This document shows positions 4,839 through 29,658 of a stretch of DNA of 64,000 nucleotides, piece after piece. This DNA comes from Phytopythium helicoides. Its lineage: Eukaryota > Oomycota > Peronosporomycetes > Pythiales > Pythiaceae. Position numbers and translations under genes: made by a program. Location: the NCBI GenBank assembly GCA_024867545.1, contig JANFNE010000041.1, positions 124,001-188,000 on the forward strand, in the 5' to 3' direction. Below the pieces are notes generated by a model, which was given only the letters and a program-made list of their open reading frames with translations, was not told the DNA's origin and ran no database searches. Numbering within the stretch: the first letter of the stretch is position 1; every line of letters starts with the position of its first letter.

Positions 4839-7342
4839 GGCGGGGGAGCAGCCGGATGAGCTGGGTGGGCGTGAGCGAGCGTGGAGGGCCGAAGAAGCCG
4901 GGAAAAGCGCGAATGAGCTCGTCAGAAGGTAGGTACGCCACGCCGGACGCGAATTGTATGGCGCCCAGTATGGGAGGGCCGGAGCTGCTCACGTGGCTGC
5001 GCGAGGCCTCTACGGTGGGCGAGCGGACGATGTTTAGCGCCCCGCCGACCTGTGGGCGACCGATGATTAGCGCGGCCGTCCCACAATCGCAACGGACGAC
5101 GTGGGTTTCGTTTTGAGGTGACATGAACGGATGGAGGGGATTATTTCATGAAGGGTAATGTGAAGGTTAAATTCAGTAAATCAGGTATGAGATTGTAGGA
5201 AGTAACAAGTGCTACAGGTGGTCATCCCATCGAGCACAGTTGATCAGCTCACATGCTCACAGCCCATAACCCTTTGGCGTGAGCAGGTGTCACACTGGTC
5301 GAAACTACAGCGAACAATCTAGGGAATTGTATTCATTCCTACAGGATACTGGATTATTATTCACTACCAGAGTAATCATCTAGGACTCATAAATTGAAAG
5401 CAAATCATGGAAACACAGGACGAGAACGTGGCTGGCTCCTTGCCACTCGTTATCACGATGCGTGGTTCGCGGCCGGCCCACGGTGCGGCGTGGGCGTGAA
5501 CAGCAAAGCACGTCGGATATGCGCCGAACGTTCTCTGTGTGGGCGACATCACTGCTCGCGTGCAGATCCATCGTGAGGTGGGAGTGGCTTGCTGTGCAAT
5601 CTGTGACTATCTGCATGTGCGAGCGAGTTGCTGTTAACGACGACAGGCAACGATGACAGGCAAAGTGACGTACTGTATCGTCATTCAGGAAGCGACTGAG
5701 TTGGTCTGATCACTCATTTCGAACAGACATCTCCAAGCCTTTCAAGCGATTGTCATGGCTGAGAGATGCCGGAGAGGAAGGTGTCGGAGAGTCGAGTGAA
5801 AACCGTACCGCTGCGCATATGGACAAAGGCTTTTCCATATGCGCAGCGGTACGGTCCACACCCACACGTGGCCAGCACGATCATTGAAGATTCACAAGTG
5901 ATTTTGGTCCGCCAAGAGCAACCTTCGAGCAACCTTCGAGAGATATTTGAAGAGGCGAGGGCTGCCTCATTCACTTGGCTCGACGTGCTTTTACACGGAC
6001 AGATACAGTATCGAGTTGCTTGATCTATCGGATCAACCTTCCGTCTCGAAATTTCTCGCCCGGTACGCCACAGCTCCGCATCGACGGCACCACAGCCGTC
6101 AGTCGTGGGGACGTTGGTGGTGATTCATTGCAGCAATGCGTCACTCGTCATCTAAAGACTTGGAGCTCCCAGGCAGCGACCGGATCTCCGTCAAGTGTTC
6201 GCTACAACGATTCGCTCTTCGTCGGCACAACGAGCATGAACCTCATCTTACCCACGCGCTCGTCCACGGCGCCATCATGAGGTTGTCTCGGCTGCGATTC
6301 GCGATTTCAACGTCGCGATGAAGAAAGTCTTCAAACCGAATGCAATCCACTGCTTGTATCAGTGTTCTTCTGGATGCTTTTGTTCAAACCCGGGCGGTTA
6401 CTACTTCGGCGAGACCACAAGCAGCTCAATTTGCCTGAATGTTGGGTGTCACTGAGTCAATGACTGTGAATACAGCAGAAACAGCTCCGAGAATAGCTCC
6501 CGGAAGCTGCAGGCACCTTCGGCACTGGAGTGTCTCTTGAGATTTATGCAAGTTCCGAGCTCAGAGGACCGATCATGATTGCGATAGCTACCTTACAGAT
6601 TACCATATCGCCATTGCTCGACGTAACCCAATTCCAGTCTTTGTGGTCTGAATCATGCTGGCAGTCTAGTCCGTGATGACCGTACTCGCTCGCTTGAAAC
6701 AAGAGCATGCTCATCTTCAGGGTAAAATGCACACGACACAGGAGTACCTCAGACTGATTTCTTGGATCTCGTAACTGCTGTAATCGAAAACCTATATTCT
6801 CGCTCTCCAAAACGGTGGCGAACCTAGCCTGTATCGCGTTTGATTCATGCGAGCGCAAGAAACCTCATTGGATCCATCGCGTATCCTGCACGATATAGGT
6901 GGCTAAGCAAGCGTTGACGAATAGCTGTCATAAGCAAAGGAACGCATTCATGCGATTGAACGAGACGCATCAACTCGTCTATTGAAAGTGATACACGACC
7001 CAATATCCCGATAATCACAACGATCCAAGGGTGATCCCACACTTTTGGAGTCAACCGGCTCAGCTTCTTAGCGATGGAAAATGAGCTATCCAACAGCTTT
7101 GGCCCAGTTAACAGCTAGCGGATCGCGTTGAAGCGGTGATGGGATACCCTTTGAAGACCAGAAACAACATGTTATCGACCACGCCGTTCAAAGTGCAGTG
7201 GGGAGCGAGCGCTTCAACAACCCAGGCATTAATGCACCACGTCGCAGATAGCACTCGTACTTAGTCGGGCCTCCCCAGTCCGCCGGCGTCCCTCCTTCCT
7301 CCATACAAAGACCAAGAGTTTCCGCCGTCCACCAGCCACAGC
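4839..7342. other. gene-poor interval between bZIP array and CWC22
   Basis: About 2.5 kb. It holds the upstream region of bZIP paralogue 3, a strong hairpin at 5802-5855 (listed separately), and the CWC22 promoter. Two adjacent minus-strand open frames (6845-7093 and 6544-6858, 82 and 104 residues, different frames) look slightly protein-like and could be exons of one small gene or a relic. I could not join them with a convincing intron and do not call them. Nothing else is supported. Confidence 0.4.
5802..5855. repeat. inverted repeat, 22-bp perfect arms, 10-nt loop
   Basis: Positions 5802-5823 and 5834-5855 are perfect reverse complements separated by caaaggcttt. The centre of each arm contains CATATG. 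No terminator-like T run follows, and no transposon ORF flanks it. It could be a small-RNA precursor, a collapsed mobile-element end, or a cruciform-forming site. Confidence 0.75.
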
Positions 7343-10024
7343 ATGGCGCGCGGCCGCTCCGCCTCGCGCTCGGCGCGGCGCTCGCCCCCGCGCCGCCGTC
7401 GCCGCTCGCGCAGCCGCAGCGCGTCGCCGTCCTCGTCGCGCTCTCGCTCGCGGTCCCAGCGCCGCCGCCCGCGCGCTCGCAGCCGCAGTAGAAGCCGAGA
7501 ACCGCGCCGAGACGCGCCGCGCGAGCCCAGCGGCCGCCGCGAGCGGCCCGAGGCGGCCGACGGGGCCCCGCGCGCGCGCGGGAGGAGCCGGGAGCGCCGC
7601 GGGAGCAAGCGCTCGCGCTCGCGCAGCCGCTCGAGGCGCCGCCGGTCGCGCAGCGCGTCGTCCGGATCCTCGCGCTCGTCGTCGTCCGGGTCGTCGCGCT
7701 CGTCCTCGCGCTCGTCGTCGCGGTCGCCCACGCCCGTGAGGAAGAAGAGCAGGAGGGAGGACAAGGAGCAGACGTCGCCCAAGCGGGAGAAGGAGGCTGC
7801 CAAGGCCACGCGCAGGGAGAAAGAGGCCACGCGCAGGGAGGGCAAGGGCGAGCGCGGCGGAGACACCACGCCTCCGCGGCGAGCCAAGAAGGAGGATCCC
7901 GAAGACACCACCCCGCCGCGTCGCGAGAGGAAGGAGAGGGAGGACGCGACGCCTCCGCGTCGGGAGAATGAGAGAGGAGAAGCCACTCCTCCGCGCAAAG
8001 AGAGGAGAGAACGAGATGCCACGCCTCCGCGACGAGAGAAGGACAGGGACGACGCTACCCCGCCACGCCGAGAGCGCAGGGAGAGAGATGATGCGACCCC
8101 TCCACATCGTGAGAGAAGAGAGCGAGATGCCACGCCGCCGCGTCGGGAGCGGCAGGAGAGAGAGGATGCCACGCCTCCGCGTCGGAGCGTACGTGAGCCC
8201 GAGCGAGTTGATGGAAAGGACGACAAGGTGTCGCCCACGACGACGACGAGAAAGCGCTTTGAGTTCAAAGACGACCCGAAGCTAACGGGGCGCACGGGCG
8301 GCGTGTACATTCCACCATTCAAGCTTGCACAACTGCGCAAGCAGCAAGAGGCAGCAGGAATCGACAAGAGCTCGATGGAGTATCAGCGACAGACGTGGGA
8401 CGCGCTCCGCAAGAGTCTGAACGGTCTCATCAACAAGGTCAACGTGTCCAATATCAGCAACATCCTGCCTGAACTCTTCCAGGAGAACCTCGTGCGCGCT
8501 CGAGGTCTTCTTGCGCGTGCGATTATGAAGGCACAGCTCGCTTCTCCAGGCTTCACGCACATCTATGCTGCACTCGTGTCTGTGATCAACACCAAAATGC
8601 CTGAGAACGGCGAGCTCGTCGTTAAGCGCGTTGTCCACCGCTTCCGTCGAGCATTCAAGCGTGGCGATAAGGTCGTCGCTATCGCCCTAGTGCGATTCAT
8701 CGCTCACCTTGTGAACCAGCAGGTTGTCCACGAGCTGCTTGCGCTGGAAGTGCTGACGCTGCTACTGGCGAACCCGACAGACGACTCGGTTGAAGTCGCC
8801 GTCAATTTTACCAAGGAGTGCGGTCAGATTCTGGCGGAGCTGTGTCCGGAAGGTCTTCGTGCCATTTTCGAGCGCTTCCGCGGTATTCTGCACGAGGGTG
8901 AGATCGACAAGCGCGTGCAGTACACGATTGAGGGCCTCTTTGCTATTCGGAAGGGCGGTTTTGCCGACTACCCAGCGATCCATGAGCAGCTTGATTTGGT
9001 CGAATCTGGCGACCAAATCACGCACGAAACCACGTTGGAAGAAGATATCGACGTCGAAGACAAGCTGGATGTGTTCCGCGTTGATCCGGACTACGTGAAG
9101 AATGAGCAGATGTGGACGGCGATTCGGAAGGAGATCTTGGGCGAATCGGACTCTGACGACGACGGTTCCAGCGGCAGCGAGGACGGCTCCGATGACGAAG
9201 AGGAGGACGAAGAGGAGAATCAACCAGCTGTGGTCAACCAGACAACGACGATCCAGGATTACACAGAGCAAGACTTGGTGAATCTGCGACGAACAATCTA
9301 TTTGACGATCATGTCGAGTATCTCACACGAAGAGTGCGCGCACAAGCTCATGAAGTTGAACATTCGACCTGGACAGGAGAAGGAGATCTGCTCGATGCTT
9401 ATCGAGTGTTGCAGCCAGGAGCGAACGTACTTGCGGTACTATGGGTTGCTCGGTGAACGCTTCTGCTTGATCAAGCGGGAGTACCAGGATGCCTTCGATG
9501 AATGCTTTGCAGAACAGTATTCGATGATCCACCGCCTGGAGACCAACAAGCTGCGCAACGTTGCCAAGTTCTTTGCGCATTTGCTGTTTACAGACGCGCT
9601 GCCATGGACGGTGTTCGAGTACATTCACTTGAACGAAGAGGAGACGACATCTTCGAGTCGTATCTTTGTCAAGATCTTGTGCCAGGAGTTGTCAGAGCAT
9701 CTGGGCTTGAAGACGCTGAAGGAGCGATTCTTTGACGATCTCATGCAGCAGACGTTCGCGGGTATCTTCCCGAAGGATAACCCGCGCAACACTCGCTTTG
9801 CGATCAACTTTTTTACGTCGATTGGTTTGGGCGGACTCACGACAGACCTGCGCGAGTTCTTGAAGAACGCTCCGAAGATGATCATGGCGCAGGCAAAGCC
9901 CGTGGAAAGCAGGGACAGCGACTCTAGTAGCTCGGACAGTGATAGTAGCAGCTCGGATAGCTCCTCGGACTCGGACTCGGATTCAGACTCGGACTCGAGC
10001 AGCAGCGACAGTGACTCGGACTAG
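7343..10024 (+). CDS. CWC22: pre-mRNA-splicing factor CWC22 homologue
   Basis: An 893-residue protein from the first ATG, uninterrupted. The N-terminal 300 residues are Arg/Ser-rich (RS domain) and include about nine degenerate repeats of the type ATPPRRERxERD. From about residue 319 (GGVYIPPFKL) a MIF4G domain runs to about 560, with family motifs such as GLINKVNVSN and FTKECGQIL. An acidic linker (about 605-640) leads to an MA3 domain (about 640-755), then INFFTSIGLGGLT and a Ser/Asp-rich C-terminus. CWC22 is the spliceosomal protein that recruits eIF4A3 and seeds exon-junction complex deposition; nuclear location is expected. The length matches the human protein (about 900 residues). Antisense open frames over the RS region are compositional shadows. 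Confidence 0.96.
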   Translation: MARGRSASRSARRSPPRRRRRSRSRSASPSSSRSRSRSQRRRPRARSRSRSREPRRDAPREPSGRRERPEAADGAPRARGRSRERRGSKRSRSRSRSRRRRSRSASSGSSRSSSSGSSRSSSRSSSRSPTPVRKKSRREDKEQTSPKREKEAAKATRREKEATRREGKGERGGDTTPPRRAKKEDPEDTTPPRRERKEREDATPPRRENERGEATPPRKERRERDATPPRREKDRDDATPPRRERRERDDATPPHRERRERDATPPRRERQEREDATPPRRSVREPERVDGKDDKVSPTTTTRKRFEFKDDPKLTGRTGGVYIPPFKLAQLRKQQEAAGIDKSSMEYQRQTWDALRKSLNGLINKVNVSNISNILPELFQENLVRARGLLARAIMKAQLASPGFTHIYAALVSVINTKMPENGELVVKRVVHRFRRAFKRGDKVVAIALVRFIAHLVNQQVVHELLALEVLTLLLANPTDDSVEVAVNFTKECGQILAELCPEGLRAIFERFRGILHEGEIDKRVQYTIEGLFAIRKGGFADYPAIHEQLDLVESGDQITHETTLEEDIDVEDKLDVFRVDPDYVKNEQMWTAIRKEILGESDSDDDGSSGSEDGSDDEEEDEEENQPAVVNQTTTIQDYTEQDLVNLRRTIYLTIMSSISHEECAHKLMKLNIRPGQEKEICSMLIECCSQERTYLRYYGLLGERFCLIKREYQDAFDECFAEQYSMIHRLETNKLRNVAKFFAHLLFTDALPWTVFEYIHLNEEETTSSSRIFVKILCQELSEHLGLKTLKERFFDDLMQQTFAGIFPKDNPRNTRFAINFFTSIGLGGLTTDLREFLKNAPKMIMAQAKPVESRDSDSSSSDSDSSSSDSSSDSDSDSDSDSSSSDSDSD
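7864..8190 (+). repeat. degenerate ~39-bp coding minisatellite in CWC22
   Basis: About nine head-to-tail repeats of roughly 12-14 codons, each built around (A/T)TPPRRE followed by a charged R/K/E/D spacer. They lie between the RS domain and the MIF4G domain. Such tracts usually vary in copy number between strains. Confidence 0.75.
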
Positions 10025-10222
10025 GCATGCTCGTGAACCTCGATCGTGTGTGCCAGCTTCGTTGTGCTGATTTTCATGAAAGCAGGAGCAAACTCAAAGC
10101 AACAAATATATAGCGATGACTCGGTTCCGCGAGCTATTTCTAGGGTACGCATGGCGCCAATCGTGTTTTGCGTTGAGCTTGTTGATAGGGCTGGTGGTGC
10201 TCTTGCAGAGTTTTGCTGTGTG

Positions 10223-11152
10223 ATGGCGCCAGGTTTCGCGCCTGCACCGCGGTCGATAGTTTGCGCAGGTTGTAATGGCCAATACTTCGCATCATCGCTA
10301 CCCATCCACCAAAAGACGTGCTTCGAGCGCAATGCCTTCGCCCCGATCATCTGCCCAACTTGTCGAGCGTCTATCAGGCAAGTAGTGGGTTCTCGATCTG
10401 CTCGACTCGATTGTTTGGAGCTAGAGTTGCTGACAGATTTTGCGAGCAGGACTGGGATCTACCACGCACACATCAGCACTTGCACAGGGCCAAGCGCTAA
10501 TGAACAGACGTTAGACACCATCTCACCAGTACCAGCTCCGAGAAACAATCCATCAGAGATCAATGTACCAGAAGCTGACGGCCGGATCCGCTGCAAGTGC
10601 TGCGATCGCGCGTTCAATAAGGTAAGCCTTTGCGAGGATTACGAATGCTGACGAAGAACTGATGGATGAAGGGTGCAGGATCGGATAGCCAAGCATCAGT
10701 CTGTGTGCCTTGGTCGTTCAACTAGCCCTGATCGACCAGCAAGAAGGATAACGAGCACCCCTGTGCGACCGACCAGAGTCGAGCGACCAAAGTCGAGTGT
10801 GCCCACAGGTGGAGGAGTACGTTCCTTCATGCCAAGCACAGGTGTAAGATTGCGGGCTCCAGGCATTCCTCAGACTAGAGTTAGCACCAGACCATTCCAA
10901 ACTAGTAGCCGCAGCTTCCGCAGGGACGAGCTGCATCGCTTCGATACTGTCACGAGAGACTCGACAAGGCGACTCGAGAGCACAACCGGCCGAGGTGGGA
11001 TTCCGGGGGCGAATCAAATGGCAACAACTGAGCGCTGGGATAGCACCTCGAACGCAAGCTCCGCTGGGAATCCGCTTGTGACGAACCGCATGATGACGTT
11101 GACGCGACATCATCACTTTGCATCGTCCGTGACAGCGAGCAGCACATTCTAG
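10223..11152 (+). CDS. C2HC-type zinc-finger protein, two exons
   Basis: Exon 1 is 10223-10621 and exon 2 is 10679-11152. The intron (10622-10678, 57 bp) has GTAAGC and GTGCAG ends and phase 0. It splits the second zinc finger: CKCCDRAFNK lies before it and DRIAKHQSVC after, giving C-x2-C-x12-H-x4-C. The first finger is near the N-terminus (CAGCNGQYFASSLPIHQKTC, same spacing). The fingers resemble the ZC2HC1 (zf-C2HC) family. The rest is basic, Ser/Arg/Thr-rich and low-complexity. I chose ATG 10223 (about 290 residues) because the frame also opens at 10046, only 22 bp after the CWC22 stop; the longer start remains possible. Function is unknown. Confidence 0.8.
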
Positions 11153-11209
11153 CCCCATCAAATCGTAGTATGCATCTCTCAGCTCATATATATTTGCTGC
11201 TTTCCCAAG

Positions 11210-11602
11210 CTACGCCGCTGCGCCGCCAAAGTCCAGGCGCCGCTGCTGCAACTTTCGTTTACCCTTGGTCAGCACTTTCAGTCTATTTTGCGCTCCACCG
11301 CTGACGCCACCTCGCTCGAGTCGCCGGGTGACCGGACTTCGAACCCACGTGCTCGGACTCCCCGACGCTTTAAGGATTGCCTTGACATGCACCAACTCCT
11401 TCGGAAGCGAGCTGTGCCAGACTACGGGGTTCACTGGGGTCATGAGCGATGCTGGGAGGCTGCAGTAGGCTGAAGTCTGCACTCTAGTCGCGTTGGGACG
11501 TGCTGGCTTCGGAATCGCTGCTCGGACCCGCACGAGTCGGCGGCCCTCTCGCATCCACGCCGATGCACCCGACTGGTAGATGACTCCGCTCCGAAGCTTC
11601 AT
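11210..11602 (-). CDS. hypothetical basic protein
   Basis: A 130-residue minus-strand frame. The open frame begins at a GTG (11698), but the first ATG (11600-11602) gives MKLRSGVIYQ, an N-terminus of a type I associate with small oomycete proteins. It is rich in Arg, Lys and Pro and ends in a basic stretch (KGKRKLQQRR) that could be a nuclear localisation signal. No domain is recognised. It lies tail-to-tail with the C2HC gene, 57 bp away. A non-coding frame is possible. Confidence 0.4.
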   Translation of the reverse strand: MKLRSGVIYQSGASAWMREGRRLVRVRAAIPKPARPNATRVQTSAYCSLPASLMTPVNPVVWHSSLPKELVHVKAILKASGSPSTWVRSPVTRRLERGGVSGGAQNRLKVLTKGKRKLQQRRLDFGGAAA

Positions 11603-11843
11603 GACAATCAACAGTGGTTGGTAGAATGCCAAATGGCTTGGAGGAGCTGCAAGTGAGCTCGTGCAGCACTCCTGGCCGTTACACGGACCGACCAGCACTC
11701 GCCATGAGTTCCTGAAGTTGCCGTTCGACTAGCGAGACCAAATCACAAAAACCAATTCTCTCTATATCATAATGATCCTTTCAAAACCAATCCAATACGC
11801 TCCACTCCGCCCTCCCATTCGCGATTTCTCCATTAGCGCCGTC

Positions 11844-12682
11844 ATGTCGGTCGACAAGTTCGCCTACCCGGAGTACTACGACTTCCCGCCCTTCTTCACG
11901 TGCGTCCCAGGGCCCCTGGCGCCTCCACGTCCAGCCCCACATGACCCTTTGCGTGTCTACTGACTGCTGTGCGAATCTCGCGCGCGCCCGCAGCCTGCAG
12001 CCCGTGCGAGCGACCCGAGAGAAGCAGCTCGTGCTCTGGAAGCAGCTCATCCTCGAGTACCACCGCGCGCACGCGCTGCCCGTGCTGGCGCCGCTGGCCT
12101 CGTCGCTGTTCGAGAACGCCAAGATCTCGCGCAACATGGCGCCCGAGGGCCGCATGGCCGTCGTTGACTACATCGTCAAGAGCGGCAACGGCGCCTGGGA
12201 CGACGACGGCAAGACGCGCGTGCGTATTATGTGGAAGAAGCCTGCCGAGTGGGCCGCCGAGATCTACGACTTTGTGTGTAGTTGGTTGCTCTTCTTCTTG
12301 GCAAGTGGCGGACGGATGAGTGACGGGGTGCTTGGGTCATTGGCCGCAGGCCAGGGAGCGAGGCATGCTCGGCAGCGTCTTCACTGTCTACGAGCTGTAC
12401 GCGGGCGAGGAGACGCTCGGCACGAGTGCGTGCTGCTTTCAAAGCAGCTCTATTGCTGAAGAGTTTGGCACTGACGGCGTCAACTACTTGGCAGGTATCC
12501 ACGGCATGGAGCCATGGCTGCTGCGCGAGGCGCTGGGCGTGCTCGAGTTGGAGGGAAAGGTGAGGAGGCTAGAACGTTCAAGTGAGGAGACACAGTGGCT
12601 CATGCAATGCTGACTACAGGCGGCGATCATCGCGGGCGAGACGTGCGAGGAGGACGGCGTCAAGTTCCTGGCGACCGAGTAG
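11844..12682 (+). CDS. VPS25: VPS25, ESCRT-II subunit (five exons)
   Basis: Exons at 11844-11899, 11994-12273, 12350-12425, 12495-12559 and 12620-12682 give 179 residues, close to human VPS25 (176). All introns are GT-AG and the joined frame stays open. Family signatures are present: YPEYYDFPPFFT then LQPVRATREKQL across intron 1, MWKKPAEWAAEIYDF, and SVFTVYEL. VPS25 forms two copies per ESCRT-II complex and acts on endosomes in multivesicular-body sorting through tandem winged helices. I start at ATG 11844, which aligns with the family; ATG 11772 is in frame upstream and would add 24 residues. Two introns start GTGCGT, an unusual donor. Confidence 0.93.
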
Positions 12683-12882
12683 GCGTAAACGGTAATGTAA
12701 TGGAATGCTGTTGTTGTGAACTTTTCTCGAGCGGGAAACGTTTGGTCTTTTGTTCAGGAGGCGCCGGCATCTTTGGATTCCAGGTAATGGCACCGAGTTC
12801 ATTCGCTCGTTTTCATTTACGATCGATACATGCATGGCTCACCCTCCGACTCGTCACGATGCTCTCTCCCTCGCCCTGCTGC

Positions 12883-13494
12883 TTAGTGACACTTGCACGC
12901 GCAGCTTTGCTTCTTCCGGTCGCTTGCCTTGCGGTTGATGTGCGCCATCTCGATCGCCGACTGTGCCCACGCAGCACCGTGCGTCGGCTGCTCTCCACGC
13001 GTTCCCGTCAACCCCGCACACGCACGCGCTTGGTCTTCGCTCGTGCAGGTCATGAGGCCGTAGATCACGGGTGTCTTGGTCATCATCCCCACTTTCATAG
13101 CTGCGCGAGTCACAGCTTCGCCCACAAACTCGTACGAGAGCGAGTTGCCACGCACGACGCAGCCAAGGCAGATAACGACGTCGATTGTCATTGGCGCCGA
13201 GAGGATCAAGCGCTTGATCGCGTACGGCAGCTCGAACGGCAGCGCGACCTGGGCCTCATGAATGCTGTCGCGACCCACGCCCTTGAGCAGAAGCTCGCCG
13301 CGACAGGCATTCACCAGCGCATTCGCGATTTCTCCGTGCTCGCGCGTCAACACGATTCCGATTTGCAGCCCCGATCCGTCGAGCGAGTGCTTTCCGCCGC
13401 TCACGAACCCCGGGTCGCGGATCAGCACGGGCTTCTGTATCTCCGGTTCCTCGTCGTGCTTGCGCGAGGTCGCCGTCGCCGTCGTCCTCGTCAT
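12883..13494 (-). CDS. lumazine-synthase-fold protein, short form (copy A)
   Basis: A 203-residue protein from the first ATG in frame (13492-13494); the open frame runs further to a GTG, but that would overlap the divergent gene. Core motifs of 6,7-dimethyl-8-ribityllumazine synthase are visible: LQIGIVLTREH, ALPFELPYAI, VVICLGCVVRG, TPVIYGLMT and AQSAIEMAH. The motif that normally carries the catalytic His (G-x-T-x-H-F/Y) reads GNSLSYEFV, with Ser120 at the His position. The usual Arg in the QAxxRAG segment is Cys. The C-terminus ends in a tiny Cys tail, CACKCH. Catalysis is therefore doubtful. It is transcribed divergently from the Cys-tailed paralogue. The protein of the second copy is identical. 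Confidence 0.85.
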   Translation of the reverse strand: MTRTTATATSRKHDEEPEIQKPVLIRDPGFVSGGKHSLDGSGLQIGIVLTREHGEIANALVNACRGELLLKGVGRDSIHEAQVALPFELPYAIKRLILSAPMTIDVVICLGCVVRGNSLSYEFVGEAVTRAAMKVGMMTKTPVIYGLMTCTSEDQARACAGLTGTRGEQPTHGAAWAQSAIEMAHINRKASDRKKQSCACKCH

Positions 13495-13654
13495 GCTGGC
13501 TGCTTCTTCGACTATTGCTGCTTTTTCGTAAGTGATAGTGATAGCTTCCCAACGGCCAGTTGAAGCAGCCACGAGAGAAAATCCCTGTCGCACTCGAGGC
13601 ATGCCTGGAAGGCTAGTCATTTCCAAGCTTTCCCGAGGAGCAGCAGCAAGGAAG
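13495..13654. promoter_or_regulatory. divergent promoter region between the two lumazine-synthase-fold genes
   Basis: This 160-bp interval separates the start codons of two divergent paralogues and is duplicated intact at 28398-28557. The short distance implies shared or overlapping promoter elements and probable co-regulation. I see no clear TATA or Inr match. If the longer plus-strand start at ATG 13601 is used, the interval shrinks to 106 bp. Confidence 0.55.
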
Positions 13655-14755
13655 ATGGCGTCTCCAGCGACTTGTAGCCAGACAGGCCATGGCGGGTCGA
13701 TGCCCAAACCAGTGCTTGTGGGTGAGCCTGGCGCCACGGGCTCTCACGTGCTCAGCGGCAAGGATCTGCGTGTCGGCATCGTGTCCACGCGTTGGTACGA
13801 CGACGAGATCGTTGGGCCGCTGACGGAGGCGTGCTCCAAGGAGCTGCAGGATAAGGGTGTCGCGGCGAGCGACATCATCGTCGTGCAAGTGTCCGGCGCG
13901 TTCGAGCTGCCGTTCGCAGCCATGCGTCTGATCGATGCCGAGGGTGATCACCTGGACGCAGTGGTGTGCATCGGCTGCATGGTCAAGGGCCGCACCATGG
14001 CGTACGAGTTCGTGAGCGAGGCTGTGACCATGGGCATCATGAAGCTCAACGTCAAGACGGACACGCCCGTGATCTTTGGCGTCCTGACGGTCGCGAACGA
14101 GGAGGACGCCAAGGCGTGTGCAGCGGCACGCGGAAGTTGCGGCGGCAGCTCGACCAAGTGCAGCCACGGCGTCGAGTGGGCCCAGTCGGCTCTCGAGATG
14201 GCGCGTCTCAAGCACGCGACGGCCCCCAAAATCGCCGGCAAGTGCAAGTGTCAGTGCCACTGCGAGACCAAGGATTGCAGCTGCGCGTGCCACTGCTCCA
14301 AGTGCGGCTGCAACGCGTGTTCGTGCTCGGACTGCAAGTGTACGAGCTGCAAGGGAAGTCGTGGTGTTGGGAAGTCTGGCGCCAAGAGTTCATCTGCCAA
14401 GATCTGCTCCCAGTGCGGCGACGAGACGGACAAGTGTCGCTGTGATAAGTGCATGTGCAAGGAGTGCTGCAACAAGCTGACGTCCCAGATCGCTCATGCA
14501 GAGGACAAAAAGTGTTCCCAGTGCGGTGATGAAGTTGGCAGCTGCCGCTGCAAGGACTGCAAGTGCACGGACTGCTGCGCCAAGGGAACGGCGGCGTCGG
14601 AGACCAAGGAGGAAGACGACTTGCACATTTGCAGCACTTGCGGCATTGCTGCTGATCAGTGCCGGTGCACGGACTGTCAGTGCTCTGGGTGCCGCAGCGA
14701 CAAAGGAGCGAAGCGCACGGCGGAAAAGCAGTGTGGCGACTGCTGCAAGGCGTGA
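13655..14755 (+). CDS. lumazine-synthase-fold protein fused to Cys-rich metal-binding-like tail (copy A)
   Basis: A 366-residue protein from ATG 13655 (A at -3); ATGs at 13601 and 13700 are alternatives. Residues about 25-185 are a lumazine-synthase domain: VGIVSTRWYDD, VSGAFELPFAA, VVCIGCMVKG, TPVIFGVLT and AQSALEMARL. The catalytic-His motif reads GRTMAYEFV, with Ala116 at the His position, and the conserved Arg after VLT is Cys. From about residue 195 there is a tail of about 170 residues with roughly 41 Cys: first a dense CxC/HC block (KCKCQCHC, SCACHCSKCGC), then three modules of the form CSxCGxxxxxCRCxxCxCxxC, then CGDCC. A standard enzyme ends near residue 190. The tail suggests zinc or copper binding, and the core may still assemble into pentamers or capsids; both are inferences. 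Confidence 0.88.
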   Translation: MASPATCSQTGHGGSMPKPVLVGEPGATGSHVLSGKDLRVGIVSTRWYDDEIVGPLTEACSKELQDKGVAASDIIVVQVSGAFELPFAAMRLIDAEGDHLDAVVCIGCMVKGRTMAYEFVSEAVTMGIMKLNVKTDTPVIFGVLTVANEEDAKACAAARGSCGGSSTKCSHGVEWAQSALEMARLKHATAPKIAGKCKCQCHCETKDCSCACHCSKCGCNACSCSDCKCTSCKGSRGVGKSGAKSSSAKICSQCGDETDKCRCDKCMCKECCNKLTSQIAHAEDKKCSQCGDEVGSCRCKDCKCTDCCAKGTAASETKEEDDLHICSTCGIAADQCRCTDCQCSGCRSDKGAKRTAEKQCGDCCKA

Positions 14756-15559
14756 GTTTGGTGGCGTGAATGTGCTCCAGACGCAGAGTGGATCCAGTTG
14801 CTGCTGGAGGCTTTTGATATTTTTGACGTCATGAAAGGGTGAGGACGAGGGTGAGGCAGCAGGTTGGCGCTGCATGCATGTGATGAGGATGTGAGGTAGG
14901 GTATTTGGCCCGTATGGGCTTGCTTTGAATGAACAATCAGCAACGTTGGAAAATGGATATGCATGCAGCATCGATTTTCATCGCTCACGAGCTTCGACAC
15001 CATGTTGAACAAGTACAGTTGTCAGTGTGTCAACTTCGAGACGACGTGGTAGTCATTGAGATTATTGCCGGTATGGTAGTCAAATTATTGACTATCGGGT
15101 AGTCAGTGATGACCATATGCTGAAGTTGGTTGGTTGGCCACCACACGTCGAAGGTGGGTCATCTTGTGATGCGAATCATATCACGCCTCAAGCTCAGCTC
15201 GCCTGATATTCTCAAGGAGTACCTGGCTGAAGCCACGAAGTGGTTGAGCACACCATGGCTGATGACCACATTTTGTTTTGATGTCCGATGGAAATTCTAT
15301 ATTGCTTTTGGAGCTGCTGACTCACCCACTTTGGCACTAACCCCTGTAGCGGATTCAATGATTTGTGATCAGCGCCATCGCAACAAAGGTTGATGTTATC
15401 TTTCACTCGACCTCAAGATCATCTGACCGTCGCAAGCTGCAAAATGATGATTAGCGGGGCTCATGCGCGGCAACCCCAAGCCTAGGATCCCTAAACACTA
15501 GTCCAGCAGCAGACCATGCACTCCTCGTTGCTCATCGAAAGCCCCAATGTAGAGCAAGA

Positions 15560-15690
15560 GTGGATAGACGCTTGCACGGCACTGTTGAACCAACAAAAAG
15601 CTACCAACAAACTGTTACGATCAGAATCTCACTGGATCGGAGCATAAGTAACAGTTGCTGGAAGGAAGCGGAGCTTTGGGGTGTCTCACG
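15560..15690 (+). pseudogene. decayed 5' fragment of the BRO-N-like gene family (unit 1; also 18202-18332 and 20844-20974)
   Basis: The frame reads DRRLHGTVEPTKSYQQT and then drifts. This is recognisably related to GGRLHGTLEPINSYNQT in the full-length ORF 870 bp downstream. The following nucleotides still align with the EHKQQLLEG region but contain a stop and a frame change. No start codon is available, so it is a relic. The same frame, with one TAG at 15860-15862, continues as a Glu/Gln-rich stretch to 16090 that may belong to the same dead gene. Identical relics occur in units 2 and 3. Confidence 0.6.
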
Positions 15691-16160
15691 AGCCTTACCG
15701 ACGGTGGGGCTGTGGGGCGTCAAGACGAGCAACACCTACGCCAAAGCTGACGCTTACGACGTACTTGAGGGGGAGCTCGAGGTGCAGCAGAACGAGGACT
15801 CTAACGAGGAGCAGAGTGCAACAACGACGGTATCGCGAGCTTTGTCTATCGTGCAGCTATAGGTCATTGAAGTGCATCAAGACGAGAAACACACAGACGA
15901 ACCCGCCGAGGTGCAAGCCGAACAACAGGCCGAGGAGCAGTACGCCATATTTGAGGAGCAGCATCAAGATGAGGAGCACGCAAGCAGCTTGACATGTCGA
16001 TATTGCGGAAGCAATGGAGCTGGATACACCAATGGAAGAGTTCAACCTACTGCCACTTTGTCTGTCACTACGACCTTTTCCTGTTGCTAGCGCGGACACA
16101 CGGAATTCGTGAACGCTGAGCACACAAGTTGAAGACGGTGTAGGCTCGCCCGTGGAGAGC

Positions 16161-17207
16161 ATGCCCAATCTGAATGATTTATTCGACAGCTCATTCTTGT
16201 CACCTCTCTTGCCGCTGGAATCACTGAACCCGCTGTCGCCGAGCCGATCGTTGCCGAGTACACCCGAGCGAAGCGAGCCCGAAAATTGCCCACCAACTTC
16301 AAGCCCAGCAGTGCAAATGGTAGAAACTTCAAGCCCATCATATTCAAGCCCATCATATTCAAGCCCATCAGATGACCACACGCTTTCCGCCGGCCGCCGT
16401 AAGCCTAAGTACAGATCGGTAGTGGGTGGACGCCTTCATGGCACTCTGGAGCCGATTAACAGCTACAATCAGACGCTGACAGAAGATGAGCACAAGCAGC
16501 AGCTGTTTCAAGGCATGGAATCTGTAATGAAATGGACCAAGAAGCGAAAGAGAACAGAAAAGAAAGCGAAAATGAAAGAAAGGAAAAGAAAAGCTCGACA
16601 TCGTCGCCGTCTACCGACTCCGTTCGTCGATTCTGCTATGGATGAGCTCTTTGTAGACAGATTCGGATTTGCCCACCAAATTACACTGTACGGATCGTGT
16701 ACTTATGAAGGAATCTTTTTTGATCTCGCGGAGGTCGCGAAAGCCATTGGTTTCAAGCCGACGAGCATCACACAAAATGAGTGTCGTACATTCAAAGAAG
16801 GGAAGCACTATCAAATCTTCAAGAGTCGAGACGAAGAAGGGAAGCGCAAGTATGTGATTTTACTGACCCGTCAAGGATTCGAGTTGGCCGTGTATGCGAA
16901 AATGAAGTCTACAGTGCTAATTGACCAGCTTTACTCGATGGACCTCGGCGACGGAGTGGTGAAGTACGGGTTTTTGACGAACGTCGAAGTGCGCGAGAAC
17001 GCTTTGAGAATTGAGCTTTACGCGGCTCCACACCATGACCTCCTCTACCCTGTTCGGGTTCGCGGTGTCATGATGGGTAAAGGCGAACTACATATCCGCC
17101 GATCGTTGGACGCCTTCCACATTCATCTGGAGAAAAAAAATTTCAAGCTTTGTTTGGGTCGACAGAACTTTGCAAGCTCACAACACTCAAAGACTTTGAT
17201 CGCATAA
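16161..17207 (+). CDS. putative BRO-N/MSV199-like protein, unit 1
   Basis: A 348-residue frame from ATG 16161 (the frame opens at a GTG three codons earlier). The N-terminal third is Ser/Pro-rich with a short SSPSYSSPSYSSPS repeat. A very basic stretch (about 120-150, KKRKRTEKKAKMKERKRK) follows, then a globular region. FFDLAEVAKAIGF, followed about 35 residues later by YVILLTRQGFELAVYAKMKS, resembles the BRO-N/MSV199-type domain of phage antirepressors and large DNA viruses, but I hold this family call at low confidence. A run of eight A (17133-17140) precedes a C-terminus that looks out of frame: the +1 frame continues with protein-like sequence (LFGSTELCKL, DFDRIIECMN). The ORF may thus be a frameshifted pseudogene or use slippage. 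Confidence 0.5.
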   Translation: MPNLNDLFDSSFLSPLLPLESLNPLSPSRSLPSTPERSEPENCPPTSSPAVQMVETSSPSYSSPSYSSPSDDHTLSAGRRKPKYRSVVGGRLHGTLEPINSYNQTLTEDEHKQQLFQGMESVMKWTKKRKRTEKKAKMKERKRKARHRRRLPTPFVDSAMDELFVDRFGFAHQITLYGSCTYEGIFFDLAEVAKAIGFKPTSITQNECRTFKEGKHYQIFKSRDEEGKRKYVILLTRQGFELAVYAKMKSTVLIDQLYSMDLGDGVVKYGFLTNVEVRENALRIELYAAPHHDLLYPVRVRGVMMGKGELHIRRSLDAFHIHLEKKNFKLCLGRQNFASSQHSKTLIA

Positions 17208-17389
17208 TTGAATGCATGAACGCACAGCAGAATACTTGGACACAAATATCGACGAAGTCGATGAGTTCCCTTTTGATCAAGCGGAGATGATGAAGAGGCT
17301 TCACATTCGGCTGCAAAAAGCTGAACAAGGGACCCAGCGAGTTACCGCGTAGGCAGAATGACGTCACCGCTCTCTCCGAGCATGCCTCG

Positions 17390-20031
17390 AGGCGTGAGTT
17401 TGGTGGCGTGAATGTGCTCCAGACGCAGAGTGGATCCAGTTGCTGCTGGAGGCTTTTGATATGTTTGACGTCATGAAAGGGTGAGGACGAGGGTGAGGCA
17501 GCAGGTCGGCGCTGCATGCATGTGATGAGGATGTGAGGTAGGGTATTTGGCCCATATGGGCTTGCTTTGAATGAACAATCAGCAACGTTGGAAAATGGAT
17601 ATGCATGCAGCATCGATTTTCATCGCTCACGAGCTTCGACACCATGTTGAACAAGTACAGTTGTCAGTGTGTCAACTTCGAGACGACGTGGTAGTCATTG
17701 AGATTATTGCCGGTATGGTAGTCAAATTATTGACTATCGGGTAGTCAGTGATGACCATATGCTGAAGTTGGTTGGTTGGCCACCACACGTCGAAGGTGGG
17801 TCATCTTGTGATGCGAATCATATCACGCCTCAAGCTCAGCTCGCCTGATATTCTCAAGGAGTACCTGGCTGCAGCCACGAAGTGGTTGAGCACACCATGG
17901 CTGATGACCACATTTTGTTTTGATGTCCGATGGAAATTCTATATTGCTTTTGGAGCTGCTGACTCAGCCATTTTGGCACTAACCCCTGTAGCGGATTCAA
18001 TGATTTGTGATCAGCGCCATCGCAACAAAGGTTGATGTTATCTTTCACTCGACCTCAAGATCATCTGACCGTCGCAAGCTGCAAAATGATGATTAGCGGG
18101 GCTCATGCGCGGCAACCCCAAGCCTAGGATCCCTAAACACTAGTCCAGCAGCAGACCATGCACTCCTCGTTGCTCATCGAAAGCCCCAATGTAGAGCAAG
18201 AGTGGATAGACGCTTGCACGGCACTGTTGAACCAACAAAAAGCTACCAACAAACTGTTACGATCAGAATCTCACTGGATCGGAGCATAAGTAACAGTTGC
18301 TGGAAGGAAGCGGAGCTTTGGGGTGTCTCACGAGCCTTACCGACGGTGGGGCTGTGGGGCGTCAAGACGAGCAACACCTACGCCAAAGCTGACGCTTACG
18401 ACGTACTTGAGGGGGAGCTCGAGGTGCAGCAGAACGAGGACTCTAACGAGGAGCAGAGTGCAACAACGACGGTATCGCGAGCTTTGTCTATCGTGCAGCT
18501 ATAGGTCATTGAAGTGCATCAAGACGAGAAACACACAGACGAACCCGCCGAGGTGCAAGCCGAACAACAGGCCGAGGAGCAGTACGCCATATTTGAGGAG
18601 CAGCATCAAGATGAGGAGCACGCAAGCAGCTTGACATGTCGATATTGCGGAAGCAATGGAGCTGGATACACCAATGGAAGAGTTCAACCTACTGCCACTT
18701 TGTCTGTCACTACGACCTTTTCCTGTTGCTAGCGCGGACACACGGAATTCGTGAACGCTGAGCACACAAGTTGAAGACGGTGTAGGCTCGCCCGTGGAGA
18801 GCATGCCCAATCTGAATGATTTATTCGACAGCTCATTCTTGTCACCTCTCTTGCCGCTGGAATCACTGAACCCGCTGTCGCCGAGCCGATCGTTGCCGAG
18901 TACACCCGAGCGAAGCGAGCCCGAAAATTGCCCACCAACTTCAAGCCCAGCAGTGCAAATGGTAGAAACTTCAAGCCCATCATATTCAAGCCCATCATAT
19001 TCAAGCCCATCAGATGACCACACGCTTTCCGCCGGCCGCCGTAAGCCTAAGTACAGATCGGTAGTGGGTGGACGCCTTCATGGCACTCTGGAGCCGATTA
19101 ACAGCTACAATCAGACGCTGACAGAAGATGAGCACAAGCAGCAGCTGTTTCAAGGCATGGAATCTGTAATGAAATGGACCAAGAAGCGAAAGAGAACAGA
19201 AAAGAAAGCGAAAATGAAAGAAAGGAAAAGAAAAGCTCGACATCGTCGCCGTCTACCGACTCCGTTCGTCGATTCTGCTATGGATGAGCTCTTTGTAGAC
19301 AGATTCGGATTTGCCCACCAAATTACACTGTACGGATCGTGTACTTATGAAGGAATCTTTTTTGATCTCGCGGAGGTCGCGAAAGCCATTGGTTTCAAGC
19401 CGACGAGCATCACACAAAATGAGTGTCGTACATTCAAAGAAGGGAAGCACTATCAAATCTTCAAGAGTCGAGACGAAGAAGGGAAGCGCAAGTATGTGAT
19501 TTTACTGACCCGTCAAGGATTCGAGTTGGCCGTGTATGCGAAAATGAAGTCTACAGTGCTAATTGACCAGCTTTACTCGATGGACCTCGGCGACGGAGTG
19601 GTGAAGTACGGGTTTTTGACGAACGTCGAAGTGCGCGAGAACGCTTTGAGAATTGAGCTTTACGCGGCTCCACACCATGACCTCCTCTACCCTGTTCGGG
19701 TTCGCGGTGTCATGATGGGTAAAGGCGAACTACATATCCGCCGATCGTTGGACGCCTTCCACATTCATCTGGAGAAAAAAAATTTCAAGCTTTGTTTGGG
19801 TCGACAGAACTTTGCAAGCTCACAACACTCAAAGACTTTGATCGCATAATTGAATGCATGAACGCACAGCAGAATACTTGGACACAAATATCGACGAAGT
19901 CGATGAGTTCCCTTTTGATCAAGCGGAGATGATGAAGAGGCTTCACATTCGGCTGCAAAAAGCTGAACAAGGGACCCAGCGAGTTACCGCGTAGGCAGAA
20001 TGACGTCACCGCTCTCTCCGAGCATGCCTCG
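17390..20031. repeat. 2,642-bp tandem repeat unit, copy 2
   Basis: Second complete unit, nearly identical to copy 1 and even closer to copy 3. The junction at 17390 joins GCATGCCTCG to AGGCGTGAG, the 3' end of the lumazine-synthase-fold gene. Only a 9-bp stretch is shared at the breakpoint, which suggests microhomology-mediated tandem duplication followed by unequal exchange. Confidence 0.95.
18803..19849 (+). CDS. putative BRO-N/MSV199-like protein, unit 2
   Basis: Translation is identical to the unit 1 ORF (348 residues from the ATG), including the Ser/Pro-rich N-terminus, basic stretch, BRO-N-like segment and the A8 run at 19775-19782 with the apparently frameshifted C-terminus. Exact identity means either recent duplication or ongoing homogenisation of the array, so shared lesions pre-date amplification. 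Confidence 0.5.
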   Translation: MPNLNDLFDSSFLSPLLPLESLNPLSPSRSLPSTPERSEPENCPPTSSPAVQMVETSSPSYSSPSYSSPSDDHTLSAGRRKPKYRSVVGGRLHGTLEPINSYNQTLTEDEHKQQLFQGMESVMKWTKKRKRTEKKAKMKERKRKARHRRRLPTPFVDSAMDELFVDRFGFAHQITLYGSCTYEGIFFDLAEVAKAIGFKPTSITQNECRTFKEGKHYQIFKSRDEEGKRKYVILLTRQGFELAVYAKMKSTVLIDQLYSMDLGDGVVKYGFLTNVEVRENALRIELYAAPHHDLLYPVRVRGVMMGKGELHIRRSLDAFHIHLEKKNFKLCLGRQNFASSQHSKTLIA

Positions 20032-21595
20032 AGGCGTGAGTTTGGTAGCGTGAATGTGCTCCAGACGCAGAGTGGATCCAGTTGCTGCTGGAGGCTTTTG
20101 ATATGTTTGACGTCATGAAAGGGTGAGGACGAGGGTGAGGCAGCAGGTCGGCGCTGCATGCATGTGATGAGGATGTGAGGTAGGGTATTTGGCCCATATG
20201 GGCTTGCTTTGAATGAACAATCAGCAACGTTGGAAAATGGATATGCATGCAGCATCGATTTTCATCGCTCACGAGCTTCGACACCATGTTGAACAAGTAC
20301 AGTTGTCAGTGTGTCAACTTCGAGACGACGTGGTAGTCATTGAGATTATTGCCGGTATGGTAGTCAAATTATTGACTATCGGGTAGTCAGTGATGACCAT
20401 ATGCTGAAGTTGGTTGGTTGGCCACCACACGTCGAAGGTGGGTCATCTTGTGATGCGAATCATATCACGCCTCAAGCTCAGCTCGCCTGATATTCTCAAG
20501 GAGTACCTGGCTGCAGCCACGAAGTGGTTGAGCACACCATGGCTGATGACCACATTTTGTTTTGATGTCCGATGGAAATTCTATATTGCTTTTGGAGCTG
20601 CTGACTCAGCCATTTTGGCACTAACCCCTGTAGCGGATTCAATGATTTGTGATCAGCGCCATCGCAACAAAGGTTGATGTTATCTTTCACTCGACCTCAA
20701 GATCATCTGACCGTCGCAAGCTGCAAAATGATGATTAGCGGGGCTCATGCGCGGCAACCCCAAGCCTAGGATCCCTAAACACTAGTCCAGCAGCAGACCA
20801 TGCACTCCTCGTTGCTCATCGAAAGCCCCAATGTAGAGCAAGAGTGGATAGACGCTTGCACGGCACTGTTGAACCAACAAAAAGCTACCAACAAACTGTT
20901 ACGATCAGAATCTCACTGGATCGGAGCATAAGTAACAGTTGCTGGAAGGAAGCGGAGCTTTGGGGTGTCTCACGAGCCTTACCGACGGTGGGGCTGTGGG
21001 GCGTCAAGACGAGCAACACCTACGCCAAAGCTGACGCTTACGACGTACTTGAGGGGGAGCTCGAGGTGCAGCAGAACGAGGACTCTAACGAGGAGCAGAG
21101 TGCAACAACGACGGTATCGCGAGCTTTGTCTATCGTGCAGCTATAGGTCATTGAAGTGCATCAAGACGAGAAACACACAGACGAACCCGCCGAGGTGCAA
21201 GCCGAACAACAGGCCGAGGAGCAGTACGCCATATTTGAGGAGCAGCATCAAGATGAGGAGCACGCAAGCAGCTTGACATGTCGATATTGCGGAAGCAATG
21301 GAGCTGGATACACCAATGGAAGAGTTCAACCTACTGCCACTTTGTCTGTCACTACGACCTTTTCCTGTTGCTAGCGCGGACACACGGAATTCGTGAACGC
21401 TGAGCACACAAGTTGAAGACGGTGTAGGCTCGCCCGTGGAGAGCATGCCCAATCTGAATGATTTATTCGACAGCTCATTCTTGTCACCTCTCTTGCCGCT
21501 GGAATCACTGAACCCGCTGTCGCCGAGCCGATCGTTGCCGAGTACACCCGAGCGAAGCGAGCCCGAAAATTGCCCACCAACTTCAAGCCCAGCAG
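20032..21595. repeat. 2,642-bp tandem repeat unit, copy 3 (truncated)
   Basis: Follows copy 2 without a gap and stays nearly identical until about 21595, inside the BRO-N-like ORF. There it switches to a more diverged relative of the same gene. The unit is cut to about 1.56 kb. The chimeric junction lies about 90 bp before a Gypsy LTR. Confidence 0.92.
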
Positions 21596-21686
21596 CGCAA
21601 AGGGCAGGAACCAAAACCACCGGCTAATCACACACTTCATGCCATCCATATCGCTCACCGTAAGCCTAAGTATAAAGCGGTAGTGG
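21445..21686 (+). pseudogene. chimeric 5' part of BRO-N-like gene, disrupted by Gypsy insertion
   Basis: Begins like the intact ORFs (MPNLNDLFDSS) but after about 21595 becomes a diverged version and stops at 21627. The last bases before the LTR (cgtaagcctaag...cggtagtgg) still align with the intact genes at 16399-16425. The matching downstream part resumes after the element at 26735, so one ancestral gene was split by the insertion. Confidence 0.75.
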
Positions 21687-27785: not shown

Positions 27786-28397
27786 TTAGTGACACTTGCA
27801 CGCGCAGCTTTGCTTCTTCCGGTCGCTTGCCTTGCGGTTGATGTGCGCCATCTCGATCGCCGACTGTGCCCACGCAGCACCGTGCGTCGGCTGCTCTCCA
27901 CGCGTTCCCGTCAACCCCGCACACGCACGCGCTTGGTCTTCGCTCGTGCAGGTCATGAGGCCGTAGATCACGGGTGTCTTGGTCATCATCCCCACTTTCA
28001 TAGCTGCGCGAGTCACAGCTTCGCCCACAAACTCGTACGAGAGCGAGTTGCCACGCACGACGCAGCCAAGGCAGATAACGACGTCGATTGTCATTGGCGC
28101 CGAGAGGATCAAGCGCTTGATCGCGTACGGCAGCTCGAACGGCAGCGCGACCTGGGCCTCATGAATGCTGTCGCGACCCACGCCCTTGAGCAGAAGCTCG
28201 CCGCGACAGGCATTCACCAGCGCATTCGCGATTTCTCCGTGCTCGCGCGTCAACACGATTCCGATTTGCAGCCCCGATCCGTCGAGCGAGTGCTTTCCGC
28301 CGCTCACGAACCCCGGGTCGCGGATCAGCACGGGCTTCTGTATCTCCGGTTCCTCGTCGTGCTTGCGCGAGGTCGCCGTCGCCGTCGTCCTCGTCAT
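27786..28397 (-). CDS. lumazine-synthase-fold protein, short form (copy A')
   Basis: Translation is identical to the copy A protein (203 residues from the ATG at 28395-28397), with Ser in place of the catalytic His and the short CACKCH C-terminus. Identity at the protein level, with a few silent or flanking changes, points to recent duplication or conversion. The gene and its divergent partner are both intact, so both copies are potentially expressed. Confidence 0.85.
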   Translation of the reverse strand: MTRTTATATSRKHDEEPEIQKPVLIRDPGFVSGGKHSLDGSGLQIGIVLTREHGEIANALVNACRGELLLKGVGRDSIHEAQVALPFELPYAIKRLILSAPMTIDVVICLGCVVRGNSLSYEFVGEAVTRAAMKVGMMTKTPVIYGLMTCTSEDQARACAGLTGTRGEQPTHGAAWAQSAIEMAHINRKASDRKKQSCACKCH

Positions 28398-28557: not shown

Positions 28558-29658
28558 ATGGCGTCTCCAGCGACTTGTAGCCAGACAGGCCATGGCGGGT
28601 CGATGCCCAAACCAGTGCTTGTGGGTGAGCCTGGCGCCACGGGCTCTCACGTGCTCAGCGGCAAGGATCTGCGTATCGGCATCGTGTCCACGCGTTGGTA
28701 CGACGACGAGATCGTTGGGCCGCTGACGGAGGCGTGCTCCAAGGAGCTGCAGGATAAGGGTGTCGCGGCGAGCGACATCATCGTCGTGCAAGTGTCCGGC
28801 GCGTTCGAGCTGCCGTTCGCAGCCATGCGTCTGATCGATGCCGAGGGTGATCACCTGGACGCAGTGGTGTGCATCGGCTGCATGGTCAAGGGCCGCACCA
28901 TGGCGTACGAGTTCGTGAGCGAGGCTGTGACCATGGGCATCATGAAGCTCAACGTCAAGACGGACACGCCCGTGATCTTTGGCGTCCTGACGGTCGCGAA
29001 CGAGGAGGACGCCAAGGCGTGTGCAGCGGCACGCGGAAGTTGCGGCGGCAGCTCGACCAAGTGCAGCCACGGCGTCGAGTGGGCCCAGTCGGCTCTCGAG
29101 ATGGCGCGTCTCAAGCACGCGACGGCCCCCAAAATCGCCGGCAAGTGCAAGTGTCAGTGCCACTGCGAGACCAAGGATTGCAGCTGCGCGTGCCACTGCT
29201 CCAAGTGCGGCTGCAACGCGTGTTCGTGCTCGGACTGCAAGTGTACGAGCTGCAAGGGAAGTCGTGGTGTTGGGAAGTCTGGCGCCAAGAGTTCATCTGC
29301 CAAGATCTGCTCCCAGTGCGGCGACGAGACGGACAAGTGTCGCTGTGATAAGTGCATGTGCAAGGAGTGCTGCAACAAGCTGACGTCCCAGATCGCTCAT
29401 GCAGAGGACAAAAAGTGTTCCCAGTGCGGTGATGAAGTTGGCAGCTGCCGCTGCAAGGACTGCAAGTGCACGGACTGCTGCGCCAAGGGAACGGCGGCGT
29501 CGGAGACCAAGGAGGAAGACGACTTGCACATTTGCAGCACTTGCGGCATTGCTGCTGATCAGTGCCGGTGCACGGACTGTCAGTGCTCTGGGTGCCGCAG
29601 CGACAAAGGAGCGAAGCGCACGGCGGAAAAGCAGTGTGGCGACTGCTGCAAGGCGTGA
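28558..29658 (+). CDS. lumazine-synthase-fold protein with Cys-rich tail (copy A')
   Basis: A 366-residue protein differing from copy A by one residue that I can see (Ile for Val in the first beta-strand, RIGIVSTRW versus RVGIVSTRW). It has the same Ala at the catalytic-His position, the same CxC block and the same three CSxCGxxxxxCRCxxCxCxxC modules. The frame is intact. Unlike copy A, its 3' flank is not followed by the tandem repeat; it runs into the 3' end of the convergent coiled-coil gene. Confidence 0.87.
   Translation: MASPATCSQTGHGGSMPKPVLVGEPGATGSHVLSGKDLRIGIVSTRWYDDEIVGPLTEACSKELQDKGVAASDIIVVQVSGAFELPFAAMRLIDAEGDHLDAVVCIGCMVKGRTMAYEFVSEAVTMGIMKLNVKTDTPVIFGVLTVANEEDAKACAAARGSCGGSSTKCSHGVEWAQSALEMARLKHATAPKIAGKCKCQCHCETKDCSCACHCSKCGCNACSCSDCKCTSCKGSRGVGKSGAKSSSAKICSQCGDETDKCRCDKCMCKECCNKLTSQIAHAEDKKCSQCGDEVGSCRCKDCKCTDCCAKGTAASETKEEDDLHICSTCGIAADQCRCTDCQCSGCRSDKGAKRTAEKQCGDCCKA

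Follow-up and report, generated by a model that had tools for sequence, protein, structure and literature searches.

The gene and its surroundings

The window, i.e. the whole stretch of 64,000 nucleotides analysed here from a contig of Phytopythium helicoides, contains a gene for a protein of 366 residues in which a lumazine synthase (LS) domain is followed by a cysteine-rich tail (Table 1). Both parts are read without a stop in a single open frame. Upstream, at 13601, there is a further in-frame ATG. The start at 13655 was preferred because it agrees with the N-termini of the relatives, which begin with MASPAT or MATPAT. In a six-frame scan of the window, which yielded 66 stop-free stretches of at least 174 codons, this gene and its duplicate contain the most cysteine, 41 residues each per 174. 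The next-highest values are 25, found antisense to the same two genes, and 17.

Table 1. Features of the tailed gene, its neighbour and their second copies (positions in the window)
Feature	Position	Strand	Basis and remarks
Cys-tailed LS-like gene	13655..14755	+	366 aa plus stop, intron unnecessary; translation and relatives of the same layout
LS domain, residues 38-186	13766..14212	+	PF00885 (E 8.3e-42); AlphaFold2 pLDDT; Foldseek best match yeast LS 1ejb
Residue 116, Ala at the canonical active-site His (B. subtilis His88)	14000..14002	+	Sequence comparison
Residue 155, Cys at the canonical phosphate-binding Arg (B. subtilis Arg127)	14117..14119	+	Sequence comparison; role of Arg from PMC2935281
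Residue 169, Cys immediately before the N/S-H-G motif	14159..14161	+	Cys in 38/39 clade A rows
First tail module, residues 197-232, CxCxCHC...CxCxCHC...	14243..14350	+	15 Cys in 36 residues, Cys counted by hand
Repeat module 1, residues 251-271	14405..14467	+	Sequence pattern
Repeat module 2, residues 287-307	14513..14575	+	Sequence pattern
Repeat module 3, residues 326-346	14630..14692	+	Sequence pattern
Divergent neighbour, second LS-like paralogue (clade B), short Cys end CACKCH	12883..13494	-	PF00885 (E 1.2e-32); start codon from comparison with relatives
Gap between the two start codons, 160 bp	13495..13654		Coordinates
Second copy of the tailed gene, with a single nucleotide change (Val to Ile)	28558..29658	+	Sequence comparison
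Second copy of the divergent neighbour	27786..28397	-	Within the 2.2-kb duplicate; end points from the constant offset of 14903

The tailed gene and its neighbour form a head-to-head pair, and the short gap between them is presumably a shared promoter. A consensus pattern of the metal response element found no match in 13301-13700, a result that has little meaning in an oomycete. Consecutive locus numbers, which give adjacency and not orientation, place both kinds of gene side by side in Pythium brassicae (PybrP1_010169/010170), P. oligandrum (Poli38472_011804/011805) and two records of P. insidiosum (PINS_up009913/009912 and P43SY_000957/000956). Seven further contigs, with lengths of 22209, 6667, 11060, 3929, 8041, 13811 and 6061, seemingly carry both kinds, an assignment made by equal length only.

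Within the window the pair has been duplicated: 27669-29875 is 99.8% identical to 12766-14972, over 2.2 kb. In the whole genome (49 Mb in 100 contigs) PF00885 was found at eight places, which comprise one canonical LS, three copies of the tailed gene, three of the neighbour and one very divergent protein. A diverged tailed copy lies on contig C44, in a 19.5-kb stretch that is collinear first with window positions 7218-14953 (92.6% identical) and then with 27669-41128 (93.9%). Because of this collinearity, C44 probably represents the other haplotype or a homeologue that lacks the duplication.

From 14748 to 21611 a unit is repeated directly every 2,642 bp (starts at 14748, 17390 and 20032); it begins at the last bases of the tailed gene. 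Two units contain a 348-aa frame (at 16161 and 18803), and for the one at 16161 neither Pfam nor PHROGs gave a match. The two copies of the pair flank these repeats, and the insertion is missing from the C44 stretch. The very divergent LS-like protein, finally, is encoded at C22:473757-474140 within a 342-aa frame; it scores 55.7 bits with PF00885, and the usual active-site motifs are absent from it by eye.

A lumazine synthase fold without its active-site His and Arg

PF00885 recognises the core with 142.8 bits (cut-off 26.7). AlphaFold2, run on a 40-row alignment, modelled this part with confidence: by block, the pLDDT is 90-98 for residues 31-150, 82 and 68 for residues 151-170, which comprise the Arg site and the loop, and 94-95 for residues 171-190. 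With this model Foldseek retrieved LS structures first (1ejb with E 9.7e-13; riboflavin-bound 1kyv of S. pombe with a TM score of 0.89 by target). The sequence-only reading had seen an LS fold in the core, and domain match, model and structural comparison bear it out.

The fold has been retained; two residues of the active site have not. We here call the lineage of Cys-tailed LS-like proteins clade A and that of the divergent neighbour clade B. In a first set of 53 rows, which was grouped by eye, the canonical His88 and Arg127 are both found in 7/7 canonical rows, and each of them in 0/39 rows of clade A and 0/7 of clade B. A second set of 53 cores, selected out of 137 and grouped by a tree, lacks both residues in all 36 clade A/B rows and has both in all 17 others. 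Among 139 rows compared, 67 have both, 71 have neither, and a row with exactly one retained does not occur; the remaining row, P0119, is a fragment that shows the His and ends ahead of the Arg. These three counts are not independent tests, since they draw in part on the same rows, which moreover are related. The divergent neighbour in the window is likewise devoid of both residues.

The Arg is typically replaced by Cys: in 34 of the 36 clade A/B rows of the tree, in 35 of the 39 clade A rows of the first set (three others, one gap) and in six of its seven clade B rows (one Ala). Another new Cys is residue 169, a position occupied by His in 7/7 canonical rows of the first set. The Phytophthora group has a His one position earlier (T-H-M for T-M-H), which was not scored as the active-site His. 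Other residues of the site have been kept in clade A, i.e. the Glu of the GAFE/GAYE motif (39/39) and the Thr two positions before the active-site His (38/39). The position of Trp27 is retained in 38/39 clade A rows and in 0/7 of clade B. A joint loss of three core cysteines, suggested by row P0011, was dropped as a candidate, since there are other rows that lose just one.

How much do such losses mean? According to PMC2935281, the Arg is strictly conserved among known LSs and contacts the phosphate; His or Lys in its place leaves 62% or 9% of the activity, and uncharged residues inactivate (section 3.3). The same section also states that a number of listed active-site residues, including His and Arg, affect binding and catalysis only weakly. 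Since it calls most active-site changes weak, the loss of the His weighs less and alone proves little; the case of the Arg is the stronger one. With both gone throughout its lineage, the tailed protein is probably not a working LS, as far as sequence comparison can tell. On paper it is also unnecessary for riboflavin, because the same genome contains a canonical LS in which His and Arg are both present (C1:1169374), and domains of riboflavin synthase, DHBP synthase and GTP cyclohydrolase II were detected as well.

The cysteine-rich tail

The tail, which starts at residue 193, had been described in the sequence-only reading as some 170 Cys-rich residues with three modules. The exact figures are 174 residues and 41 cysteines, in the same frame as the core, with 15 CxC and 14 CxxC spacings and without any Phe, Trp or Tyr. 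The scarcity of aromatic residues is common to the lineage: in 39 clade A rows they account for 40 of 5380 tail residues vs 333 of 7804 core residues. Behind the first module, the three repeat modules, which start at residues 251, 287 and 326, share the pattern C-x2-CG-x5-CxC-x2-CxC-x2-C.

Cysteines in general change slowly in proteins. Their retention is for this reason a sign of constraint, not in itself of metal binding. The C44 copy retains 41/41 tail cysteines and 120/133 of the other tail residues, 13 having changed. Against four hand-picked relatives, P0002, P0003, P0005 and P0008, the cysteines are kept in 40/41, 33/33, 29/29 and 29/33 cases, the other tail residues in 85/130, 57/102, 32/102 and 24/87. 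Under equal change at all residues, this degree of Cys retention would have a chance of 0.026 for C44, 7e-6 for P0002, 1e-7 for P0003, 2e-12 for P0005 and 2e-9 for P0008. The comparison of the window gene with the C44 copy gives dN/dS values of 0.20 for the tail and 0.22 for the core. The low value for the tail together with the retained cysteines implies that the tail is constrained at the protein level.

The number of tail cysteines varies widely among the relatives in the 139-row set, and the tail goes along with the altered active site. At least five tail cysteines are present in 59 of the 71 rows with neither His nor Arg and in none of the 67 with both; in the tree the corresponding numbers are 22/23 for clade A, 7/13 for clade B and 0/17 for the others. 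Some rows of the family have few (P0021 five, P0026 one, P0070 none); these are perhaps gene models or fragments.

Compared with Pfam and the PDB at E values up to 10, the tail matched no family and no chain. As a protein query of its own in a word-based search it produced 22 word-sharing candidates, none at E 0.001 or better, and hence no stand-alone homologue. No known metallothionein family, therefore, backs the name "metallothionein-like" that we use below. Within the same genome no tail-like gene was found beyond the three copies of this one.

Relatives and evolutionary history

The relatives of the protein are already in the databases, where, if named at all, they are labelled lumazine synthase, hypothetical, unnamed or uncharacterized. 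A first protein search listed 48 of them, many without a name, the last matches being fungal LSs; the named ones include Phytophthora, Pythium, Globisporangium, Peronospora, Hyaloperonospora and Nothophytophthora. The same fusion thus recurs in records of many oomycetes. A profile search, in which 7998 candidates were scored, gave 528 matches, of which the best 120 were examined. They contain a short-tailed version from Albugo laibachii (P0069) with seven tail cysteines and a canonical protein from Aphanomyces (P0074) with His, Arg and three tail cysteines; no other record named Saprolegniales occurs among these best 120 of the 528.

The tails form a graded series. From the seven cysteines of A. 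laibachii it leads over 13-29 in six named Pythium/Globisporangium rows of clade A to the 41 of the window protein. Twelve named Phytophthora rows have 5-33, eight of them 29-33.

The tree of 53 cores unites clades A and B (support 99/97). Clade B (100/99) takes in Albugo candida, clade A (94/88) A. laibachii. The joint group adjoins the oomycete canonical LSs at 91/80, short of the level that the tool takes as firm; the tree is rooted at its midpoint, and its outer forks are only moderately supported. From this topology we infer the following order of events. A single duplication of LS in the ancestry of the oomycetes would have provided an extra lineage, which then lost the active-site His and Arg. 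The split of this altered lineage into the divergent gene pair would predate the branching-off of Albugo. The tail may then have grown by addition of modules, mainly in clade A, and a separate canonical LS would have been retained, presumably for riboflavin synthesis.

Two observations concern canonical and fungal relatives. The canonical oomycete-type LSs P0072, P0074, P0075 and P0078 have 44-54 extra C-terminal residues with a hydrophobic stretch, by eye possibly a membrane anchor. P0100, from Clathrus columnatus, combines LS and GTPase-type domains in one protein of 513 aa, either a fusion or a gene-model error.

Oligomeric state

LSs occur as pentamers and as icosahedral shells of 60 subunits, and the sequence-only reading had left room for both. 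The loop between the Arg site and the N/S-H-G motif has a bearing on this. It comprises 15 residues in the window protein, seven in the four icosahedral PDB sequences (1rvv, 4v7g, 3mk3 and 1hqk), and 11 and 10 in the LSs of yeast (1ejb) and Candida (2jfb), which are pentameric according to PMC2935281 and PMC10366380. In icosahedral LSs the α4-α5 loop lines the contact between pentamers (PMC2935281, section 3.2). Since a long loop would lie at this very contact, the pentamer seems likelier than the 60-mer. The choice follows from this one loop length, with yeast and Candida as the only pentameric comparators; of the two assemblies first envisaged, then, the pentamer is favoured and the shell disfavoured. 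The long loop is not universal in clade A, where its length ranges from 8 to 31 (P0019 10, P0068 8).

Possible functions

The loss of residues that the enzyme needs, together with a long Cys tail that resembles those of metal-holding proteins, points to a probable metal-binding protein built on a retired enzyme. We would give a probability of about 0.6 to the following reading: an LS pseudoenzyme now serves as an oligomeric, most likely pentameric, scaffold for metallothionein-like, metal-binding tails in the cytosol. The LS fold would gather several tails, the pentamer of the window protein presenting about 205 tail thiols. If reduced, the thiols in the CxC and CxxC steps could hold soft metals such as Cu(I), Zn or Cd as thiolate clusters in the cytosol. 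That the tail binds metal at all is suggested by its composition, pattern and conservation; the loss of activity, the pentamer and a role in metal buffering or detoxification are likewise putative.

The tail could, of course, also serve another purpose. It may consist of structural, zinc-finger-like units that recruit protein or RNA partners to the same pseudoenzyme scaffold, the metal being structural and not stored. The regularity of the CxxCG...CxC modules fits such units. So does the AlphaFold2 model, which in the tail (pLDDT 32-79, the best blocks in modules 1 and 3) places a bridge between the same pair of residues, seven apart, in all three modules (250/257, 286/293 and 325/332; local pLDDT up to 79 by block). 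Usual zinc fingers, however, are less dense in Cys than the first module with its 15 in 36 residues, Pfam families of whatever kind leave the tail without any match at E values up to 10, and the widely differing number of cysteines among relatives is not in favour of fixed structural units either. We regard this, the main alternative, as unlikely, if worth keeping in mind.

A still-active LS with the tail as an add-on, i.e. a bifunctional enzyme, is distinctly improbable. The protein does exceed the cut-off of the NCBIfam LS equivalog TIGR00114 (84.6 bits) with 114.6 bits, and even the neighbour reaches it with 84.6; the Trp27 position is retained, named relatives are often labelled LS, and PMC2935281 describes the majority of active-site changes as mild. 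Against this stand the tree, in which none of the 36 lineage rows has the Arg or the His, the inactivation that PMC2935281 reports for uncharged residues at the Arg, and the canonical LS elsewhere in the genome.

A more adventurous extension of the scaffold idea builds on the ring-stacking Trp, kept in nearly all clade A rows, and on the phosphate-binding Arg that is now a Cys. The pentamer might still hold a flavin or lumazine, and pocket Cys and flavin might couple redox state or light to loading or release of metal in the approximately 200 thiols. We consider such a flavin-gated metal store a long shot.

The high Cys content could also remind one of a secreted, disulfide-rich protein working outside the cell. 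A composition rich in CxC and free of aromatics is, however, atypical of disulfide proteins, and inspection by eye revealed no hydrophobic signal in the N-terminus MASPATCSQTGHGGSMPKPVLV, which makes secretion very improbable. An artefact, finally, be it a frame error, a misassembly that joined the tail as a separate gene, or a non-coding tail, is hardly conceivable: the gene does sit within a recent duplication on its contig, but the same layout recurs in the diverged copy and in the records of many oomycetes, which renders an assembly error unlikely, and the tail is under the constraint seen in its dN/dS of 0.20.

Comparison with known proteins and significance

With LS (RIB4/RibH, PF00885; yeast 1ejb, S. 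pombe 1kyv, B. subtilis 1rvv) the window protein shares the fold over residues 38-186 as well as Trp27, Glu and Thr. It differs by the lack of His88 and Arg127, by its 15-residue loop and by the Cys tail of 174 residues. With metallothioneins, taken as a kind, the tail has in common the CxC/CxxC spacing, the lack of aromatics and the addition of Cys blocks in modules. Metallothioneins, however, are small and free-standing, whereas this tail is fused to an LS fold in a protein of 366 aa and matches no Pfam family or PDB chain. The likeness to archaeal riboflavin synthase (TIGR01506) is weak: 20.5 bits are far below the cut-off of 100.55, and the lineage branches beside oomycete LS in a tree that contains no archaeal riboflavin synthase.

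Taken singly, the LS fold and the metallothionein-like tail are familiar. New, it seems, is the fusion of the two in a lineage of oomycetes that lacks the active-site His and Arg. As the sequence-only reading had supposed, no description of this architecture was found in the open-access literature searched, a body of text that leaves most subscription journals, and preprints, outside; for Pythium, downy mildews and Saprolegnia this negative carries limited weight. The passages considered in PMC9036806, PMC2242796, PMC2935281 and PMC10366380 make no mention of a Cys-tailed LS-like protein. An EST of the downy mildew Plasmopara halstedii (CB174674) is listed with the signature "Plant metallothionein, family 15" in PMC2242796.

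For this oomycete lineage the riboflavin-enzyme names on several database records are probably wrong and would mislead metabolic models or lists of drug targets that rely on them. Should the tail bind metal, Phytophthora, Pythium and the downy mildews, pathogens of crops and animals included, would have a metal-handling protein in common. Some of these pathogens are fought with copper. More generally, the protein would be an example of an enzyme fold that, minus its catalytic residues, has been reused as a thiol scaffold, and the graded series from Albugo to the window protein allows the growth of the tail to be traced.

Further features of the window

Two other features of the window may be recorded. 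Positions 7343-10024 encode an Arg/Ser-rich protein with MIF4G and MA3 domains, which we take to resemble the splicing factor CWC22. At 53113-53687 there is a direct repeat of 206 bp in two copies that are 98.5% identical.
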